Shown: one piece after another, positions 106 to 10,518 of the stretch
How the letters are laid out: every line of letters starts with the position of its first letter
Numbering within the stretch: the first letter of the stretch is position 1
DNA from: a virus
IMG/VR virus record: IMGVR_UViG_3300049491_000444
Span: 1-33,225 of that record
Length of the DNA: 33,225 nt
Reading direction: 5' to 3' (one strand)
Program-made: the position numbers and the translations under genes
The notes under the pieces: generated by a model
What the model was told of the DNA's origin: nothing
The model's database searches: none
Seen by the model: the letters and a program-made list of their open reading frames with translations, nothing else

Positions 106-390
106 ATGCTTGAACCTGCGCCTGGCGAAACAACCGAGAAGGATCTACACGAGCTTAACACCCAAGCGGTGGACACCTTGAGGTCGGTGTTGACGGATGC
201 AGATTCAGACGACGTTAAGCGCAAAGCTGCGGTGGATATTCTAAACTTCTCGCAGGTTGGCAAATCTAAAGGCCGGGCACCTATAGTAACGGAGGAGCAA
301 CTTGAGTTCCTTGGACGAGTCATTGTCGAGGCTGAAGCGGTTCGTGAAGGCCTCGCACTCAGCAAAGGATCGTTGGTCGGACCTGCGTAG
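106..390 (+). CDS. Putative terminase small subunit
   Basis: A 94-residue, mostly helical, charged protein lies directly upstream of the terminase ATPase gene, the usual place of the small terminase, which recognises phage DNA and hands it to the large subunit. I see no unmistakable DNA-binding motif, so the call rests mainly on position and size. An in-frame TTG at 64 would add 14 residues, but that start would lie upstream of the promoter's predicted start site, so ATG 106 is preferred. No Shine-Dalgarno precedes it. The 3' end overlaps the next gene by 89 bases in another frame. Confidence 0.5.
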   Translation: MLEPAPGETTEKDLHELNTQAVDTLRSVLTDADSDDVKRKAAVDILNFSQVGKSKGRAPIVTEEQLEFLGRVIVEAEAVREGLALSKGSLVGPA

Positions 391-1267
391 GTTGGCTCAG
401 ACCAATCTGTACGTTCTGGCCAAAGGTATCCTGGATTTTAAGGACATGGACCCGGCGTTCCATGGTCCTTGCTGCGCCCAACTCGACACGCTCAAGTTGC
501 CGTTCGGCAGACAGCTTGACCTTTGGCCTCGCGGTCATTTGAAGACACACATCATTACAATCGCTAAGAACATCCAGTATTATTTACAAGACAACAACAT
601 CCGCATCATGCTCGGCGGCTCCTCGCGTGAGAACTCGATGAAGAACCTCCGCAAGATCAAACAGATCTTCGAAACCAACACCCTCCTCCACTGGTTGTTT
701 CCTGAGTGCATACCTGACACGAAGGGTGATAAATGGGCCGAGATGGAGATCCTGCTACCGCGAACAAAGAATCATCCCGAGAGCACCTTCAAGTGCATTG
801 GCGTCGGCGGACACATAACCGGCTGGCACTTTGACGTACTGAGCAAGGATGACCTTATCGACGAGAAAACCGAGAGGTCGCCTGAGGTGATGGAAAAGAT
901 CATCGACTGGCACTTGCTCACAAAGAACTTGCTCGAGTCGCCTGTGATGGGTATAGACCAGGTAGTAGGCACGCGGTGGGCCATGTTTGATCTCTACCAA
1001 CACATCATCAATAACGAGCGTGAGTACACTGTAAACAGAATATCGGCAATTCAAAAAGATCCAGCCGATGGCATCTTGAAGCCTGTCTGGGCCAAACGCT
1101 TCCCATTGGACTCCTTGCTTGAGCTTCGCATCAAGGACCCATACATGTACGCCTGTCAGCAAATGAACGATCCACGAGACGAGGCCGTTGTTGACTTCAA
1201 AGCCTCGTGGCTCCAATACTATGGCTTCAGCGACGAGAGCTTGAACATTCTAGCCGAGGTTGGCTAA
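302..1267 (+). CDS. terL-N: Terminase large subunit, ATPase half (split TerL)
   Basis: This 321-residue protein carries the packaging-motor ATPase of the large terminase but not its nuclease. Visible motifs are a Walker A-like PRGHLKT at residues 76-82, a Walker B-like FDVLSKDDLID at 177-187 with the acidic pair D183/D184, and the coupling motif GTRW at 223-226. The C-terminal part (around YMYACQQMNDP, 281-291) is also typical of TerL just before the domain linker. The protein then stops at TAA 1265-1267. The start is TTG 302, supported by GGAGGAG at 291-297. The next gene begins in the same TAATG. The nuclease half is encoded separately at 1543-2250, so the two products probably assemble non-covalently on the portal. 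Confidence 0.88.
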   Translation: MSSLDESLSRLKRFVKASHSAKDRWSDLRRLAQTNLYVLAKGILDFKDMDPAFHGPCCAQLDTLKLPFGRQLDLWPRGHLKTHIITIAKNIQYYLQDNNIRIMLGGSSRENSMKNLRKIKQIFETNTLLHWLFPECIPDTKGDKWAEMEILLPRTKNHPESTFKCIGVGGHITGWHFDVLSKDDLIDEKTERSPEVMEKIIDWHLLTKNLLESPVMGIDQVVGTRWAMFDLYQHIINNEREYTVNRISAIQKDPADGILKPVWAKRFPLDSLLELRIKDPYMYACQQMNDPRDEAVVDFKASWLQYYGFSDESLNILAEVG

Positions 1268-1491
1268 TGGCCCAACGCAACCCACGCTCTAACAGAAGCA
1301 AAAAGCAATTTGATTCCTATATGAAAGATGTCCAGAGCTACAACACAAAAGTAGATGCCGGACGTTCCGTTCATGGAGTAGACCCAAACCAAGAAGCTTT
1401 TAGCGACGATGCAGAAGTCCTACGCCAATCCACAGCTGTTGATAGAGCCAACTCATATGATCGTTTGATGAGGCGTAGCCGTGGCAATTAA
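1267..1491 (+). CDS. Small basic/polar protein between the TerL halves
   Basis: A 74-residue ORF starts at ATG 1267, sharing TAATG with the stop of the ATPase gene. An in-frame GTG at 1207 would overlap that gene and is less likely. The product is rich in Arg, Lys, Ser, Asn and Asp, has no membrane segment and ends in a basic RLMRRSRGN tail. I do not recognise a family. Its position exactly between terminase ATPase and nuclease suggests a packaging role or a passenger inserted at the split, but this is inference. It shares a reading frame with the nuclease gene but is separated from it by stop codons. Confidence 0.6.
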   Translation: MAQRNPRSNRSKKQFDSYMKDVQSYNTKVDAGRSVHGVDPNQEAFSDDAEVLRQSTAVDRANSYDRLMRRSRGN

Positions 1492-1546
1492 CATTCGTGG
1501 ATTGGCTCGTACGTCTGGTGCTTATAGCTGGAGCTTGCGACAATGA
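1481..1546 (+). CDS. Micro-ORF bridging to the TerL nuclease gene
   Basis: A 21-codon ORF starts at GTG 1481, inside the end of the 74-residue gene, and its TGA stop (1544-1546) overlaps the ATG of the nuclease gene at 1543. GAGG lies about 7 bases upstream of the GTG. The peptide begins MAINIRGLARTSG and is unlike anything I know. It may be a coupling device that delivers ribosomes to the nuclease start, or chance. The overlap geometry is the main support. Confidence 0.3.
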   Translation: MAINIRGLARTSGAYSWSLRQ

Positions 1547-2250
1547 TCGACGTTAAAAAGACCATCACCATCTTGCGCAATACGCTGGATATTGTGATCT
1601 GTATAGATCCGGCAATCAGCGAACGCGAGACCGCCGCGCGTTCCGCTATAGTGGTGATGGGCATGTCGCCTTACCAGAAGATGGTCTTGCTGGAGTATTG
1701 GTGCGGCCGGCAGGGTGATCCGGCTAAACTCATCCAAACCTACCTCGACATGGCCCACTTCTGGCAACCCCGGTGTATCGGCATCGAGATGGTGGCTTTC
1801 CAGAAAGCCCTCGAACCCTTTACCCTCAAAAGTATGGCCGATCGTGGTGAATACTGGCCCATCGTCAACTTGAAGCCCGATCGAAACGAAAAGAAAGAAC
1901 AACGCATCTTATCGATGCAACCCTACTTCAGGTCCGGCCAAATCTACATTCAGCGAGGAATGTCTGAGTTCATCGAAGAATACGAAACATTCCCATTAGG
2001 GCGGACACGGGACATCCTTGACGCTATGGCCTATGCCGTTCGGCTGTTGGCTCCGCAACAACAGTCTAAACGCCCCGGGCTTGATGAACAGTTGAAGATT
2101 CTTGCACGCCAAGATCCTATGTCCGCCCGATATTGGAGAGCCGATGCCGTGAAGCAAGGCCTCCTCGAACCACAAGCCGACATCGACGACATTCTAGATA
2201 ACGATTACGAAGAGAGCAAGTATGAAGAAGGCGTAGGAGAGTTCGTATGA
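1543..2250 (+). CDS. terL-C: Terminase large subunit, nuclease half (split TerL)
   Basis: This 235-residue protein is the RNase H-like nuclease that cuts concatemeric DNA during packaging. The three acidic motifs are visible: CIDPA (D22), GIE (E82), and TRDILDAMAYA (D157/D160). The residues before CIDPA look like the strand that normally follows the TerL linker, so the nuclease fold seems complete. GGAG precedes ATG 1543 by about 9 bases. A charged acidic tail (about residues 175-235) extends past the fold. The ATPase half is at 302-1267. The two halves are in different frames about 275 bases apart, so a single sequencing error cannot explain the split. The stop overlaps the next ATG as ATGA. 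Confidence 0.87.
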   Translation: MIDVKKTITILRNTLDIVICIDPAISERETAARSAIVVMGMSPYQKMVLLEYWCGRQGDPAKLIQTYLDMAHFWQPRCIGIEMVAFQKALEPFTLKSMADRGEYWPIVNLKPDRNEKKEQRILSMQPYFRSGQIYIQRGMSEFIEEYETFPLGRTRDILDAMAYAVRLLAPQQQSKRPGLDEQLKILARQDPMSARYWRADAVKQGLLEPQADIDDILDNDYEESKYEEGVGEFV

Positions 2251-2510: not shown

Positions 2511-2625
2511 AGAGGCCATTGATAAGATGCTCCAATCGCATAACATTTTTGAAGACATGGAAGAGCCTAAAGAGTCTGATCTGACTGATAATCGTAAGGA
2601 GCAGTACGATGAATTTGTCTCCTGA
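2350..2625 (+). CDS. Small coiled-coil protein upstream of portal
   Basis: A 91-residue protein starts at ATG 2350 with an excellent ribosome site, GGAGGT at 2341-2346. Residues about 9-40 form a heptad-rich charged helix (LEQEISRLRTENSRLVEH), followed by an acidic C-terminus. Its last codons overlap the portal start at 2609. I do not recognise a named family; small coiled-coil proteins next to portals can be head-assembly accessories. It overlaps the zinc-ribbon ORF by 161 bases in a different frame. The strong ribosome site and clear protein-like composition make this the more convincing of the two in the overlap. Confidence 0.65.
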   Translation: MPWFKTRYVQSLEQEISRLRTENSRLVEHSERLVERLLRKGGVASVELPPEPTKEAIDKMLQSHNIFEDMEEPKESDLTDNRKEQYDEFVS

Positions 2626-4915
2626 GATTTCAACAGGCCTCGGCAAAATCTTCAACATGTTCGGCAACAAGGGAGACGCCGTTGTTAATCCACCTGTTGG
2701 CACAACCGAGCAGGAGGCCAAGAAGAACCCTTATGAAGATGGAGCAAAAATTGCTGCAGATATCCTTGAACACCTCAGAGAAGTTGACAAACTCCGCTGG
2801 GCCTTTGAACGATTATGGTTTAGATCCATCCTTTACTATCTTGGTAACCAGTGGCTTACATGGGACGCTCGTTCTCGCCGCTGGCGCGAAAAGAAGGTTA
2901 GAAAATGGGTTCCCAAACCTGTTACCAATCGGTACGCCTCAACAGCAGATACGTTGTGTGCGGCCATCCAAAGCACAAAAGTAGAGCCTTCGGCCTGGCC
3001 TGCTACCGAAGATGTCGAAGACATAGCTGCCGCTAACATAGCCGATCGGGTAATAGAAGTAATCAACCCAGAAATCCACGTAGAACGTGTTCGTGAAGCA
3101 GTAGCCAAGTGGATCACCCTCAACGCAGATGCCTTTGTCTTCTGTCATTACGACAAGAAGGATGTCTCACTTGGCAAGACCAAGATCGAACTTCTAGCGT
3201 GTCCAATATGTGCCCAAGTTGCCGAGCCGGTGGCTTGGGAAGGTTCCGGTGGTGCTTGTCCCGCATGCGGCGAGCTTGTGCCTCCGCAGCCAAGTGGTCA
3301 GTTTAATGAATATCCGGTGGGTAGGCTCAAGGCAGATGTCTGCTCGCCCTTGGAAGTTTACCTCAATGTTGATATCACCGATATGGGAAAGCAGTTGAAG
3401 TTCACGATTGCCAAGAGCTACGCTACGGACACTGTGAAGAGCTGGTTTCCTGATATGAAGGATAAGATTCACCCTGACACGAATAGTGCCACCCGTGCGG
3501 CTCAATACTTCATGGACGCTCTCGCATATAGCACCGAGGATTCTGGCTACAATCTAACAGGTGCGGTGCAGCGAGATCGTGTCACTCTCTTGAGACACAT
3601 ACAGATGCCCTCAGAACAATTTCCCGAAGGCCTCGACGCTACTGTTACAATGGACAGCATATGCCTAGAGGCAGGTCCCAGCCCATTCTTCGAGGAAACA
3701 GCCGAAGGTAAGCAATACTACTGTCCATTGGTTAAGTTCGGCTACAATATGGTACCTGGCCGCTTGTATAGCAAAACTCCCATGTTTGATATTATCCCCA
3801 AACAAGACCAACTAAACCGTATCGAATCATTATTGGAGCTAGCCTCCATGAAAGGTGTTAATGTTAACTGGATCATACCGAATGGATCGTCGATTAGTAA
3901 TCTGTCAGGTGAGCCGAGCCAAATTATCAGATGGACCCCGTCTGGTACTGGTGGTGCTAAACCCGAGGTCGTCACCGTTGCGCCGTTCCACGCCGCGATG
4001 CTGGAATTAAAGAAACAATATGAAGCCGATTTTGAGGAAATAGCTGGTACCTTTGACGCCATGAAAGGTAACACCCCCTCAGGTGTCAGCGCAGGCTACG
4101 CCATCCAGCTATTAACAGAACGTAGCTACGGTCGCTTTGTATCGGTGTTCTCGAACTGGGAAGCTGGTTGGACAGACCTCTATACCATCTTGCTGAAGCT
4201 CTTCCGCACGTATGCAACCGAAGCTCGCATGAGAAAAATAAGGGGTGCAACAGGTGGCTGGGAAATCAAAGCCTTCAAAGGTGCCGACCTCAAAGGGGCT
4301 GTGGACATACGGATTGAAGGCGGGTCGGCGCGGCCTCGCTCTAAGCTCGCAGAACAAGCCTTGGTTGAAGCGATGGCGAAAATCGGAGTTGTTAATCCTA
4401 GCAATCCTGAGCAAGGGTTCGAGATCGCCAAGCTCTTTGGAATGACCAATATTCTGGGTGCCAATGATGAGGATGTTCGCTATGCGGCGGGTGAGTGGCA
4501 AGCTTTGCTGGATTGGCAACCTGAGACTGATCCCAATACAGGTATGCCCATGATGGGTCCCCAAACCCCTGGTGGCCCACCCTCGCCATTTCCTCCCGGT
4601 GGACCTGTGGTAGAGCCTATCTTTGACAATCACCTTGTCCATATCATGGAGCATCGTAAACCTTCCAGGACAGAGCAATACAAGACCCTAGAGCCCTGGA
4701 AGCAAATGTTCTGGAAAAACCACGTATTAGATCATTTGATGGCCATGCCGCCTCCTCCAGGCTCTGAGCTACCGCAGAAGCCCGGCTCACCGTCAGGCGG
4801 TCCCAAAAGCGAAGCAACGAGCAAAGCCAACGAGAAGGGTGACAAAACAATGGATACCGCACGAGAAGGCGGCTCTGTCGCTTTTGGCGGTGGAGGTTCT
4901 AATCAGTATCAATAG
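2609..4915 (+). CDS. Portal protein with inserted zinc ribbon
   Basis: A 768-residue portal, the dodecameric ring at the capsid vertex through which DNA is packaged and ejected. It follows terminase and precedes scaffold and capsid genes, and its size is close to P22-type portals. The N-terminal part is helical and tryptophan-rich; the middle and C-terminal stem/crown regions resemble podovirus portals. A four-cysteine knuckle pair, CPIC (C198, C201) and CPAC (C217, C220), is inserted in the wing region. Residues about 640-768 are rich in Pro, Gly and Met and look disordered. AAGGAG about 7 bases upstream supports ATG 2609. Confidence 0.8.
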   Translation: MNLSPEISTGLGKIFNMFGNKGDAVVNPPVGTTEQEAKKNPYEDGAKIAADILEHLREVDKLRWAFERLWFRSILYYLGNQWLTWDARSRRWREKKVRKWVPKPVTNRYASTADTLCAAIQSTKVEPSAWPATEDVEDIAAANIADRVIEVINPEIHVERVREAVAKWITLNADAFVFCHYDKKDVSLGKTKIELLACPICAQVAEPVAWEGSGGACPACGELVPPQPSGQFNEYPVGRLKADVCSPLEVYLNVDITDMGKQLKFTIAKSYATDTVKSWFPDMKDKIHPDTNSATRAAQYFMDALAYSTEDSGYNLTGAVQRDRVTLLRHIQMPSEQFPEGLDATVTMDSICLEAGPSPFFEETAEGKQYYCPLVKFGYNMVPGRLYSKTPMFDIIPKQDQLNRIESLLELASMKGVNVNWIIPNGSSISNLSGEPSQIIRWTPSGTGGAKPEVVTVAPFHAAMLELKKQYEADFEEIAGTFDAMKGNTPSGVSAGYAIQLLTERSYGRFVSVFSNWEAGWTDLYTILLKLFRTYATEARMRKIRGATGGWEIKAFKGADLKGAVDIRIEGGSARPRSKLAEQALVEAMAKIGVVNPSNPEQGFEIAKLFGMTNILGANDEDVRYAAGEWQALLDWQPETDPNTGMPMMGPQTPGGPPSPFPPGGPVVEPIFDNHLVHIMEHRKPSRTEQYKTLEPWKQMFWKNHVLDHLMAMPPPPGSELPQKPGSPSGGPKSEATSKANEKGDKTMDTAREGGSVAFGGGGSNQYQ

Positions 4916-4922
4916 GACTAAT

Positions 4923-5399
4923 ATGAGTGATCTATTAGAAAGTGCCACCTTAGGTTGGGCCGCAGGTATTATTGACGGAGAAGGTTCTATTGGAGTCTAT
5001 TACAATAGCAAAGCTAATGGCTTCTACTTGATGTTAACCGCTTTTAACACAGATCCAAGAATGTGCATTAAGTTACAAGAACTATTCGGAGGCAATGTTA
5101 AGTATCACAAACACGACAAACCTAATGCAAAGGGATGCTTTACCTGGGTACTAGTTGCAGGTAATGCTGCAACTGTTTTAGAAATACTATTGCCTTTTCT
5201 GATAATTAAAAAAGAGCAAGCAGAATTAGCTATAGAGTTTGGTAAGTTATCTCGTATTCATGTAGGTAGGGGTTGTCCAGTACCAGAGTCTGTTCTAGCA
5301 GCGAGAAGTGAAATTGCAAGAAAACTTAAGCAAATTAAAACTGCAGAGTTTAATGAAGACTTTTCACCTCTAACTGTTAAGGATGAGCAATTTCAATGA
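4923..5399 (+). CDS. LAGLIDADG homing endonuclease 1
   Basis: A 158-residue protein with one LAGLIDADG-type motif, GWAAGIIDGEGS, at residues 11-22, where the helix forms the dimer interface and the acidic residue binds the catalytic metal. Single-motif members act as homodimers that cut a long target and spread their own gene. It is about half identical by eye to the second copy at 8744-9238, including shared NTDPRM, ILEILLPF and KKEQA stretches. It is AT-richer than the neighbouring genes, which fits recent acquisition. It is free-standing: it starts 7 bases after the portal stop, its TGA overlaps the next ATG, and no intron interrupts a gene. A GTG start at 4839 would overlap the portal and is unlikely. 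Confidence 0.88.
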   Translation: MSDLLESATLGWAAGIIDGEGSIGVYYNSKANGFYLMLTAFNTDPRMCIKLQELFGGNVKYHKHDKPNAKGCFTWVLVAGNAATVLEILLPFLIIKKEQAELAIEFGKLSRIHVGRGCPVPESVLAARSEIARKLKQIKTAEFNEDFSPLTVKDEQFQ

Positions 5400-6895: not shown

Positions 6896-7558
6896 ATGGC
6901 AGTCCTAGAAGGCGGCGTATCAGCAGCTTTAATGGGAGTGGGTGCAGAGCCTGCTAATGCAGGTCACATGCAGATCAAGCCCATCGCCCACGGCTCCTTA
7001 GGCCACTACCGAACTGGCGTCAAGTTAGTATTCGCCACTACCCAAGCTGCCAACTCTCGCTTGTTTGAGATTCGCAATACTAGTACAAACATCCTTGTGC
7101 TTACAAGATGTTTCGTAATGGTTGCCCCAGCCGGTACCATCACCACCCCTTACATGGGTGAGATCGGGCTATTTAGGCTTACCGGCTTCACCGCTGTTGA
7201 CACGACAAATACGGTAACGCCAGTGGCGAGTGTTAAGAGGACCTCAGGGATGGCGGCATACCCAGGCGGTGCGGCTGTTAGGCATGTTACACTTGCTGGA
7301 GCGGCTGCAGGTATGACTGGCGGAACACTTACCAAAGATACTCAAGCTCTTGGAAGCCTCTTATTCAACGGTACCACATTTGCCGCTGGTACAGTGCCAT
7401 TCTCTAGAGAATTCGTAGACGACACCAACGGTACACATCCTTTAGTAATGGCCCAAAATGAAGGTTTTGAACTCGAAAACGTAGTTGTAGGTAGTGGCAC
7501 GGCAAATGTTGTCCATTGTGTGATTGATATAAGCTGGGCCGAAGTGACAGCTTACTAA
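6896..7558 (+). CDS. Putative head decoration/fibre protein
   Basis: A 220-residue protein, rich in Ala, Gly, Thr and Val, with predicted beta strands and no signal peptide or membrane segment. GAGG lies 6-7 bases before ATG 6896. It is flanked by the collagen-like gene and a small beta-rich gene, so it probably belongs to the same virion surface group. I do not recognise a specific family. Confidence 0.65.
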   Translation: MAVLEGGVSAALMGVGAEPANAGHMQIKPIAHGSLGHYRTGVKLVFATTQAANSRLFEIRNTSTNILVLTRCFVMVAPAGTITTPYMGEIGLFRLTGFTAVDTTNTVTPVASVKRTSGMAAYPGGAAVRHVTLAGAAAGMTGGTLTKDTQALGSLLFNGTTFAAGTVPFSREFVDDTNGTHPLVMAQNEGFELENVVVGSGTANVVHCVIDISWAEVTAY

Positions 7559-7569
7559 AAGGAGACTTT

Positions 7570-7914
7570 ATGGCAAGAATACCCAAAAGACTTTATGGCC
7601 CTGCTCAAATAGCCACTGGTCCTACTACAGTCTATACCGTACCTGCGTTGACAAAGACTGTAATCAGACAGATTCACATTAGCAACCCATCGGCTTCACC
7701 TGTGACAGTGACAGCCTCCATAGGTGCTGATGCAGCGGCGACGAGGTTTTTGGCTACCTACTCAATCCCAGCCGCCGCGGCAGGTGTGACAGATTCCGTG
7801 CGTGATATTTTCCTGTATTTTGTGATGGATGCTGCTGAGATTCTTACCCTATCAGCAGGCACCAACAACATCCTTGTGGTTGTTATAACTGGGGATGAAA
7901 TAGTTCTAGGGTAG
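7570..7914 (+). CDS. Small beta-sandwich virion-like protein
   Basis: A 114-residue protein with AAGGAG about 8 bases before ATG 7570. Strands such as TKTVIRQIHISNPSASPVTV are typical of small phage proteins built on one beta sandwich, often found between portal and capsid genes. Decoration of the capsid or attachment of a fibre is likely but not shown. The gap after it holds two hairpins. Confidence 0.65.
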   Translation: MARIPKRLYGPAQIATGPTTVYTVPALTKTVIRQIHISNPSASPVTVTASIGADAAATRFLATYSIPAAAAGVTDSVRDIFLYFVMDAAEILTLSAGTNNILVVVITGDEIVLG

Positions 7915-7927
7915 TGTATCTGGCCAT

Positions 7928-7974
7928 CGTGGTCGCAACCACGTTAAAATAGCGAGGCCTAGGGGTCGTACCCC
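7928..7974 (+). promoter_or_regulatory. Two hairpins upstream of scaffold gene
   Basis: In the 80-base gap before the scaffold gene there are two perfect inverted repeats: CGTGGT-CGCA-ACCACG at 7928-7943 and GGGGT-CGT-ACCCC at 7962-7974. Neither is followed by a run of T, so they are not clear terminators. They may adjust mRNA stability or expression of the scaffold/capsid part relative to upstream genes. The hairpins are directly visible; the role is inference. Confidence 0.45.
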
Positions 7975-7994
7975 GAACAACAAACGGAGGGTTT

Positions 7995-8744
7995 ATGCAG
8001 GACGGTGAACAGGAAGTAGATGGTCAAATCGAAGGGCAAGAAGGTCAACCACCTATCGAGGGTGCCGAGCGCGACTCCGGCGATACAGGAGGTCAGGGCA
8101 AACCTCAAAAAGGTGAATGGATCCCAAAGCACCGATTTGACGAAGTAAACCAGGGTTACACGAAATACAAAGAGTTCGGCAAGCCTGAAGATATTGCCAA
8201 AAACTTGGCACGTCTGAAGGAACTAGAAGCCTTACCTCAGAACCGTACGACTGACAAAGAGAAGTCTGAAATTCGCAAAGAACTTCTCAATGTCTTTCCT
8301 GAACTTCAAGTCATGTCGAACATGCTAGAGGTTCAGAAACAGGTCTACACTGCGCGTGGTGCCGAACTCAATAATGACTTCTTGAAAGAACTAGGCATCG
8401 AAGTCAACGAACCAAACAATCAGTATTTGCAAGAGCTTCTAAGTGGTATCATTGCAGCCGATCAAAAGCTCCTGCGACGCTTCTACGCGATGGACCCAAA
8501 AGTCTTCGAGTCAGCGTTCGCGGTAGCCAAGAAGACCTTCTGGCCCAACGTCCGCAAGATTGTGCCGGGGGCTGGGGTTCAAGCTAAAAAGGTTCTCCCA
8601 AAGGCTCCTGACAAACAGAAGACTCAGGATGAGCCGAATGGTAAGAAACCAGGGGGTCAACTTGGTCGGCTGGAAGAGCGAGACGAACTCGACAAAGCCT
8701 CTGAAGCAGCCTTTGCAATGCTGGAATCTTCAAGGAGTGAATAA
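7995..8744 (+). CDS. Putative capsid scaffold protein
   Basis: A 249-residue, highly charged, helix-rich protein placed before the capsid gene with only a homing endonuclease between. The N-terminus (1-40) is acidic and Gly/Gln-rich, the middle is helical with many Lys/Glu, and the C-terminus is again basic then acidic, as in podovirus scaffolds that shape the prohead and leave before packaging. There is no membrane segment. The start ATG 7995 has GGAGGG upstream. The stop shares TAATG with the endonuclease gene. The assignment is by composition and position, since scaffolds are poorly conserved. Confidence 0.75.
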   Translation: MQDGEQEVDGQIEGQEGQPPIEGAERDSGDTGGQGKPQKGEWIPKHRFDEVNQGYTKYKEFGKPEDIAKNLARLKELEALPQNRTTDKEKSEIRKELLNVFPELQVMSNMLEVQKQVYTARGAELNNDFLKELGIEVNEPNNQYLQELLSGIIAADQKLLRRFYAMDPKVFESAFAVAKKTFWPNVRKIVPGAGVQAKKVLPKAPDKQKTQDEPNGKKPGGQLGRLEERDELDKASEAAFAMLESSRSE

Positions 8745-9238
8745 TGGGACTCGATCTTCTTGATGCCGCACAACTAGGATGGGCTGCTGGTATCATTGAT
8801 GGAGAAGGTTCCATTGGTGTATATTGTAATAACCACCGTCACTATAAGCTACAAATTACAGTAGCTAATACAGATCCTAGGATGGTTCTAAAACTTCAAG
8901 ATATTTTAGGTGGTGCTGTTTGCACTCACAAGAGACAACTTTCAACAAGAAAGAACTATTTCATCTGGTCTGCGAGTGCTAGACAGGCGCATGAAATTCT
9001 TGAAATTCTTTTGCCATTCTTTGTTGCTAAGAAAGAGCAAGCAATGGTAGCTCTTGAGTTTGCCAGGCTTATTAACCCAATAAGAGGACAAAACAAAGAG
9101 ATACCAGAGGCTACTCTTGCAAGGCGTAGCGCACTATCAGAAGGCTTAAAGAAGATTAAGCAGATAGAGTTCCCTGAGGACTGTATTTATAGTGACGGTT
9201 CTTGGCCATCTTCTGTTGTGAAAAAGGAGACACTATAA
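8744..9238 (+). CDS. LAGLIDADG homing endonuclease 2
   Basis: A 164-residue paralogue of the endonuclease at 4923-5399, with the motif GWAAGIIDGEGS at residues 12-23 and the same downstream blocks (NTDPRM, ILEILLPF, KKEQA). A single motif implies a homodimer. It is AT-richer than the scaffold and capsid genes. It begins TAATG with the scaffold stop and ends TAATG with the capsid start, and both junctions read TAATGGG. Its first four residues, MGLD, equal those of the capsid protein, while the other endonuclease begins MSD, suggesting that it took over the capsid gene's initiation region. AAGGAG precedes its ATG. Confidence 0.9.
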   Translation: MGLDLLDAAQLGWAAGIIDGEGSIGVYCNNHRHYKLQITVANTDPRMVLKLQDILGGAVCTHKRQLSTRKNYFIWSASARQAHEILEILLPFFVAKKEQAMVALEFARLINPIRGQNKEIPEATLARRSALSEGLKKIKQIEFPEDCIYSDGSWPSSVVKKETL

Positions 9239-10518
9239 TGGGCTTAGATATAAGTGCTTACGATGCAGCCCTGAAAGAGGTATACGAAAAGACAATCATC
9301 GTACTCCTCAATTCCAGGACTGTTACAAGAAATCGTTTCAAAAAGGAGACTGGTAGTTGGGAAGGTCGCGTGGTTAGGTATCCACTTAACCTCGGCCGCA
9401 ACCAGGGCACGATGTTTACTTCTGAGAACGGCACCTTACCGGATGCCGGCAATCAGGAGTACGTTGAGCACCAGGTTCCGATTCGGTACGCTCACGGCAG
9501 AATCCAATTGTCCATTCAAGTCATCAAGCATTCTCGGTCCAACAAAGGTGCCTTCAAGCGTGCCATGGACCAGGAAATGCAGGGCTTGATTCGAGACCTG
9601 TCAAACAAGCTCAACCGGGCCATCTATGGCTACGGCTCAGGTGTGCTTGCGCTCCTGAATGGAGATCCAGGTACCTCGACTACGCTTACGGTGGATGCAC
9701 CTGGCGGCGTAGCTGGTGCGGTCAACGGCGCACGGTGGTTGCAGAAGAACATGTATGTCCATATCGTTAACCCGACTGGACCTGCTATTCGTACCGGCAC
9801 CGCGCGTAAGATCACGGCTGTTGCGAGTGATGGTTTGAGTGTTACCATCGACGCGGCTGCCGATGCCTCGTATGCTGATAACGACTACGTAGTACAGGCC
9901 GCAAAGCCCAGCACATCTACGTTGGCCGATACCAGCATGAACAAGGAGAGCATGGGCCTTCTCGGTTTGGTTGATGATGGAGACTATGTAAGTACTCTCC
10001 ACAACGTCAACCGCAGCACGTATCCAATCTTCAACAGCGTCAATGTCACCTCTGTAGGACCGCTCTCAGCGGACATCCTCCAGAGAGGCCTTGATGTTGC
10101 GGATCAGGTTGGTGAGGGTGCTGTGCAGTTCTTCCTCTGTCATCACTCTGTACGCCGAGCGTACTTGACGTTGATGGAGGTTGACCGTCGGTACTCGGGT
10201 GGAGACCTGCGCAAGCCAGATGCAGGCACAGTAGCAGCCAAGATGAAAGATATCACCTTCGGGGACATGCCCTGGTACGTCGATAAGGACGCTCCTTATG
10301 GTACCCTGTTCGGCATCGACCCGATGCACTTCACTCGGTGGGTTGAAGTGGAAGGTGAATGGGCCGATGATGATGGCACGATCCTGTTGCGACTCGTAGA
10401 CGTTGATGCCTACGAAGCGCGATATAGGATTTTTGAAAACTTCTCACTTGACAGGCCAGCAAGCTGCGTCCGGTGGGATGGTATCACTACCAATATCGTT
10501 GTGGCCCATATCAATTAA
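9238..10518 (+). CDS. Major capsid protein (HK97-fold type)
   Basis: A 426-residue protein directly downstream of the scaffold region, the usual place and size of the major head protein. It shows the N-terminal helix, the long loop with EVN-like hydrophilic residues, and the C-terminal strand pattern of capsid proteins in this group. There is no predicted proteolytic delta domain. ATG 9238 follows AAAAGGAG by about 9 bases and overlaps the endonuclease stop (TAATG); an upstream in-frame GTG-type extension to 9202 lies inside the endonuclease and is unlikely. A strong inverted repeat follows the gene. Confidence 0.82.
   Translation: MGLDISAYDAALKEVYEKTIIVLLNSRTVTRNRFKKETGSWEGRVVRYPLNLGRNQGTMFTSENGTLPDAGNQEYVEHQVPIRYAHGRIQLSIQVIKHSRSNKGAFKRAMDQEMQGLIRDLSNKLNRAIYGYGSGVLALLNGDPGTSTTLTVDAPGGVAGAVNGARWLQKNMYVHIVNPTGPAIRTGTARKITAVASDGLSVTIDAAADASYADNDYVVQAAKPSTSTLADTSMNKESMGLLGLVDDGDYVSTLHNVNRSTYPIFNSVNVTSVGPLSADILQRGLDVADQVGEGAVQFFLCHHSVRRAYLTLMEVDRRYSGGDLRKPDAGTVAAKMKDITFGDMPWYVDKDAPYGTLFGIDPMHFTRWVEVEGEWADDDGTILLRLVDVDAYEARYRIFENFSLDRPASCVRWDGITTNIVVAHIN

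Follow-up and report, generated by a model that had tools for sequence, protein, structure and literature searches.

The source DNA, an IMG/VR virus record of 33,225 bases (the whole stretch analysed, hereafter the window), encodes its large terminase (TerL) in two plus-strand genes. The ATPase gene (302..1267, 321 aa) begins with a TTG codon preceded by a GGAGGAG ribosome-binding site (291..304 including the start codon), and the nuclease gene (1543..2250) encodes 235 aa. Both were present as the original prediction had described them, the first with the main ATPase motifs and the second with three acidic motifs, and both were matched by phrog_38, in which ATPase residues 19-308 occupied profile positions 266-537 (E 1e-41) and nuclease residues 14-188 positions 546-719 (E 5.9e-27); the two ranges adjoin without overlap.

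Residue conservation was judged in alignments of 64-65 rows. In the ATPase alignment A6 (65 rows), R77 and K81 of the stretch WPRGHLKT (524..547, with K81 at 542-544) and the acidic pair D183-D184 (848..853) were invariant, and G223 and W226 of a GTRW segment (968..979) were nearly so. The P-loop ATPase motif residues of a TerL are thus retained, and we take the three segments to be Walker A, Walker B and a coupling-type motif, respectively. In the nuclease alignment A8, E82 (1786..1788) and D160 (2020..2022) were invariant and D22 (1606..1608) was conserved in at least 90% of the rows. By analogy, these three would be the catalytic acids of an RNase H-fold nuclease, in line with the structural match described below.

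The AlphaFold models of both halves were confident (mean pLDDT 91.4 for the ATPase and 88.1 for the nuclease), and for each half the best Foldseek match among solved chains was the PhiV-1 terminase 8dgc_E (E 1.1e-14 and 5.2e-7, respectively). VIA-align placed the ATPase model on residues 2-297 of this chain (Z 25.6, 268 aligned, rmsd 2.5) and the nuclease model on residues 305-534 (Z 15.2, 164 aligned, rmsd 2.6), while on T4 gp17 (3cpe) the corresponding ranges were 101-379 and 388-558. Since the models tile one TerL at adjoining ranges in both structures, the break lies in the interdomain linker and neither domain is short of anything. The earlier claim that nothing had been lost also agreed with the span from W303 to D22, which, summed over both chains, was 33-55 aa in the split members identified below versus 31-37 aa in 24 continuous sisters.

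Upstream of the ATPase gene lies a plus-strand ORF of 94 aa (106..390), a putative small terminase by position only, which is conserved in the split clade (tblastn matches in L003, L004, L005, L006/L007, L032 and L033/L034, where L numbers denote loci); it matched no PHROG family, and its Pfam match was sub-threshold. The portal protein gene is located downstream on the same strand (2609..4915; phrog_156 E 1.3e-20, P22_portal E 1.3e-10). An 87-aa ORF with CxxC pairs (2247-2510), whose start overlaps the nuclease stop in an ATGA, had a counterpart in L003 (60%) and no match in the other loci. Two related (51%) ORFs of the LAGLIDADG/HNH endonuclease type (4839-5399 and 8744-9238), the first directly after the portal gene, are both remote from the terL split. 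The portal homologue of L003 (G001 7262-9506, minus strand) comprises two overlapping open frames matching query residues 4-226 and 231-768, and represents either a frameshift error or a split portal. The window itself starts inside an AT dinucleotide run (1-34), through which contig L002 continues into upstream sequence.

Relatives and ancestry of the split

Most of the 212 loci considered came from searching IMG/VR with the window proteins and with alignments. Many loci repeated a single contig, and 26 had a nuclease match only. Both halves were present on the plus strand in 131 non-redundant loci, of which our script called 111 continuous and 20 split. Eleven of the latter are broken at the linker, namely the window (L001), L003, L004, L005, L006, L032, L033, L047, L048, L064 and L140. 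Inspection of the coordinates revealed L085 and L091 to be false split calls, because the match began ahead of the true ORF; L162 was put in no class, and L184, L186, L192, L195, L200 and L205 are broken elsewhere. The GenBank record MW202554, which carries the locus on the opposite strand, was included manually, which brought the distinct split genomes to 12, and L002, L007 and L034 were exact repeats, over the compared region, of the window, L006 and L033, respectively.

The original prediction had proposed looking for the same break in related contigs, and the search found it in these 12 distinct genomes, at identities down to about 50%. The two domains were encoded in separate ORFs in all of them, never on one polypeptide, and every relative of the split clade in which both halves were present was broken at the same place. 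Each half was located at one place in the circular record MW202554, which is described as a complete genome and annotated with two CDS, each named terminase large subunit; the main text of the Manatee Springs paper (PMC8388828), which may or may not be the source of this record, mentions neither a terminase nor MW202554. The ATPase start codon was TTG in 10 of the 12 members and ATG in MW202554, the row of L140 being counted from a non-start codon. In phiA008, a Helicobacter prophage, T5S1 and ANMV-1, one full-length CDS lay under the match in each case, and a single scan of cellular genomes with alignment A1 gave 102 pattern matches, none of which was confirmed.

A FastTree phylogeny with midpoint rooting was made of the 12 split TerLs and 98 continuous ones, which remained of the 111 once 13 of less than 480 aa had been removed. 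In this tree, the split members formed one clade (support 1.0) without any continuous member inside, and the next clade outward added 24 continuous TerLs (support 0.946). The lineage with the two-piece packaging motor is one family of uncultured short-tailed phages, and the tree is most simply explained by a single fission. Comparison of the window with L003 gave dN 0.107 and dS 1.83 for the nuclease and dN 0.087 with saturated dS for the ATPase; judged by these substitution rates, both halves are under purifying selection. The proposal of a stable subunit separation rather than decay was hence borne out by the shared clade of 12, by purifying selection on both halves and by the retention of all residues concerned.

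The trees of the two halves had 7 of 11 clades in common; the nuclease topology was rejected by the ATPase data (p-AU 0.001), while the ATPase topology was not rejected by the nuclease data (p-AU 0.066), and thus strict co-inheritance of the halves is not established. L004 grouped with the window in the ATPase tree (100) and with L005/L006 in the nuclease tree (94). Since its ATPase core identities (71% to the window, 72% to L006) fail to separate these groupings clearly, we do not claim recombination into mosaic halves.

Both halves carry clade-specific tails. The ATPase tail (1190..1264; residues 297-321, outside the 8dgc_E alignment) extends past the solved fold and ends in NILAEVG, of which NILAEV was invariant among the five members of alignment A1. 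The nuclease extension (2068..2247) follows the part that aligned with solved TerLs, which among the matches listed reaches up to residue 175, and includes the motif ARYWR (2125-2139), present in 12 of 12 split members versus 0 of 98 continuous TerLs. The C-terminal extension amounts to approximately 35 residues: split nucleases have 73-75 residues after D160, the 24 sisters 38-45, and the other continuous TerLs 25-96. When IMG/VR was scanned with only this tail, 13 loci matched, of which 12 were on contigs already known to carry the split; the other was L040, whose contig ends upstream of the nuclease before an ATPase could be seen. L140 was not among the matches. A tie between the extended tail and the split is plausible, although a correlation within a single clade counts as one evolutionary event.

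The junction and its passenger genes

In the window, the ATPase stop overlaps the start of a 74-aa plus-strand ORF (1267..1491), hereafter the passenger, in a TAATG (1265-1269) preceded by a weak CGAGG ribosome-binding site (1255..1269 in all). A 21-codon GTG ORF (1481..1546, plus strand) joins the passenger to the nuclease gene, which starts in an ATGA overlap (1543-1546) behind a GGAG ribosome-binding site (1530..1546 in all). The coordinates of both gap ORFs and of the TAATG, GTG and ATGA junctions thus stood as first reported. The 21-codon ORF, on the other hand, sits in a stretch of about 60 bases that is missing from L003, the nearest non-identical relative, and so lacks comparative support. 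Two of the 11 further distinct members, L003 (77%) and L004 (50%), had a homologue of the passenger, whose dN of 0.206 and dS of 1.53 between the window and L003 (dN/dS 0.134) indicated that it is probably a real gene in this subclade.

Seven of the 12 members (L005, L006, L032, L033, L047, L048 and L140) are gap-free: the ATPase stop and the nuclease start share 1 or 4 nt, from which it follows that the nuclease is constantly in the -1 frame relative to the ATPase. The last ATPase codons of these members contain a purine-rich ribosome-binding site (GGAGG, GGTGGAAG or GATGGAAG). The remaining five have gaps with varying frames (275 nt in the window, 214 in L003, 243 in L004, 283 in L064 and 192 in MW202554), and passengers of at least three kinds. 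One passenger family is common to the window, L003 and L004, and those of L064 and MW202554 showed no tblastn similarity to this family or to each other. Because seven members have no gap at all, the passengers are not what caused the split, and these sequence comparisons support the view that they are later, replaceable additions. L064 and L048, for instance, share 95% and 92% identity in the ATPase and nuclease cores, yet L064 alone of the pair carries a passenger, flanked by two TAATG overlaps; by this comparison, it is a recent cassette insertion.

PHROG/Pfam-type searches gave no convincing family for the passengers of the window, L003, L004, L064 and MW202554, and that of the window had no match among phage records. 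The L064 passenger was similar to a portion of a protein of Azobacteroides phage ProJPt-Bp1 that is annotated as putatively structural (E 2e-6; 44.6% over 70% of the query), as well as to stretches in L084 and L067. Among the members ending in LAEV, the four gap-free ones use GCG for Ala, creating GGCGGAGG, and the window, L003 and L004 use GCC or GCT; as MW202554 uses GCG despite carrying a passenger, the association of GCG with the gap-free state is only a hint.

Alternative explanations and other interrupted terminases

Since the window and most of its relatives are metagenome contigs, a sequencing or assembly error, or the decay of a dead terL, had to be considered. The independent contig L002 (11,132 bases) was, however, identical over the 3,721 bases compared, which together with the same break in the relatives shows that the stop is not an assembly error, and the occurrence in 12 distinct genomes, the low dN/dS and the retention of all catalytic residues likewise speak against error or decay; this explanation is next to negligible. 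Programmed frameshifting or readthrough into a fused TerL would fit the -1 frame and short overlap of the nuclease in all seven gap-free members. It nonetheless seems very improbable: no in-frame X-XXY-YYZ heptamer occurred within the final 90 nt in any of the seven, and in the five members with passengers the genes are separated by DNA and the frames vary.

Phage terL genes with introns are well documented, and an intron that is spliced out as in those cases would likewise leave separate ORFs. This has been described for the Jug phages (PMC12363816), Bastillevirinae (PMC11878797), ICP1 (PMC10448857) and Lelliottia phage phD2B (PMC4246154), in which splicing occurs or is proposed, often along with homing endonucleases. 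In the split clade, in contrast, the intervening DNA, though 275 nt long in the window, is absent in 7 of 12 members, whose genes overlap. These members leave nothing for splicing to remove, and still their coding sequence stops and starts anew in a different frame. The window and six split relatives gave no Rfam match at gathering score, a search that an undescribed intron type would escape, and a lax Rfam cut-off produced nothing relevant in 1000-1800; the interval ORF is conserved in L003 and L004 and had no homing-endonuclease match. The intron reading is therefore poorly supported, being largely refuted by the gap-free members, and we consider it scarcely tenable. Nor was an in-frame splicing element found at the break, which consists of a stop and a new start. 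Intein-bearing TerLs have been described from Mic1 (PMC7156551), Campylobacter phage IBB_35 (PMC3322345) and Vibrio N4-like phages (PMC3670811); the only likeness in the clade is an intein-like insert in the ATPase of L047 and MW202554, which is in frame at FA^CQQMN, about 35 codons ahead of the split, and absent from the window. In L047:671-2386 and MW202554 32887-34542, the insert measures 239 and 235 aa, respectively, and that of L047 matched LAGLIDADG and intein models.

In our literature search, which covered mainly open-access papers and left subscription papers mostly uncovered, every TerL split encountered was ascribed to introns or inteins. None of the intron and intein passages cited above reports a naturally occurring break at the linker without a gap, and reports outside the open literature are possible. 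Two gene pieces working together are reportedly found in NrdA of phage Aeh1, which is split by mobE; that is a different enzyme, and a homing endonuclease is the cause there, whereas none was seen at the window junction.

The remaining alternative is a division of labour, in which the ATPase alone, with the portal, would translocate DNA in a phi29-like manner and the nuclease would be a dissociable cutter recruited solely at initiation and headful termination. Separate chains make unequal stoichiometry possible, and the ATPase model is complete by itself. Against this, a T4 review (PMC3012670) places the translocation groove in the nuclease domain and states that the domains, once separated, no longer translocate, and the 1-4 nt coupling in 7 of 12 members suggests matched amounts of the two proteins; on balance, we regard this arrangement as unlikely.

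A probable two-subunit packaging motor

An open question about TerL is how its ATPase domain passes the effect of ATP hydrolysis on to the nuclease/translocation domain; in the T4 model, the flexible linker plays a central part. The halves described here are intact and conserved, their split is shared by ancestry, and passenger-free members join them by a stop-start overlap with an internal ribosome-binding site. We consider it likely that they constitute a constitutive two-polypeptide large terminase, whose ATPase and RNase H-fold nuclease subunits, separated at the linker and translationally coupled, reassemble non-covalently into one motor. Ribosomes finishing the ATPase gene would restart on the nuclease gene by termination-reinitiation, yielding similar amounts of both subunits, which would fold separately, dock non-covalently and, as a docked pair, package DNA as one motor. 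ATPase residues 297-321 and nuclease residues 176-235 are candidates for docking the halves or binding the portal. The small ORFs between the two genes would be unrelated genes inserted later at a cassette-tolerant stop-start junction. In the D6E terminase, according to the abstract of PMC5727402, a conserved C-terminal arm stabilises the two domains locked together; by analogy, the extended C-terminal tail of the nuclease is the first candidate for holding the halves together.

The nearest known enzymes put this arrangement into perspective. TerLs of the T7/PhiV-1 type (8dgc chain E, phrog_38) share the motifs and catalytic acids of the window halves but form one chain, whereas the window TerL consists of two chains with clade-specific tails. 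T4 gp17 cut at the linker, i.e., in the same region, retains ATPase and nuclease but loses DNA translocation (PMC3012670); that cut is artificial, whereas the split in the window is natural and under selection. Since cutting the linker abolishes translocation in T4, a natural lossless split is informative, and the halves described here must either reassemble in some special way or work differently. A lineage living with a cut linker is thus a natural experiment on whether the motor parts need physical joining: should the two halves prove to package DNA, the motor can do without covalent coupling, and the clade-specific tails hint at what takes its place. Tentatively, the engine and the cutter/translocation domain might be independently made and exchangeable parts, with the T4 hinge dispensable and a docking tail in its stead, such that the nuclease could be loaded, removed or swapped between lineages. 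The junction of the packaging genes, moreover, takes up small genes of unrelated kinds, and the essential enzyme encoded there shows no visible damage from them.

Evasion of Avs immunity as the reason for the split was set aside as speculation; 8dgc is, by its title, an Avs3-TerL complex, and we found no paper on which TerL domains Avs needs. Finally, a second kind of TerL split occurs in the more distant relatives L184, L186, L192, L195, L200 and L205, where the break follows ATPase residue ~240, so that the lid and the nuclease form one ORF. No Rfam intron was detected in these splits. The 1.0-2.8 kb between their pieces hold ordinary small ORFs, some of which resemble, by eye, glycosyltransferase, methyltransferase, surface protein and HNH genes, and several stop-start overlaps were observed.
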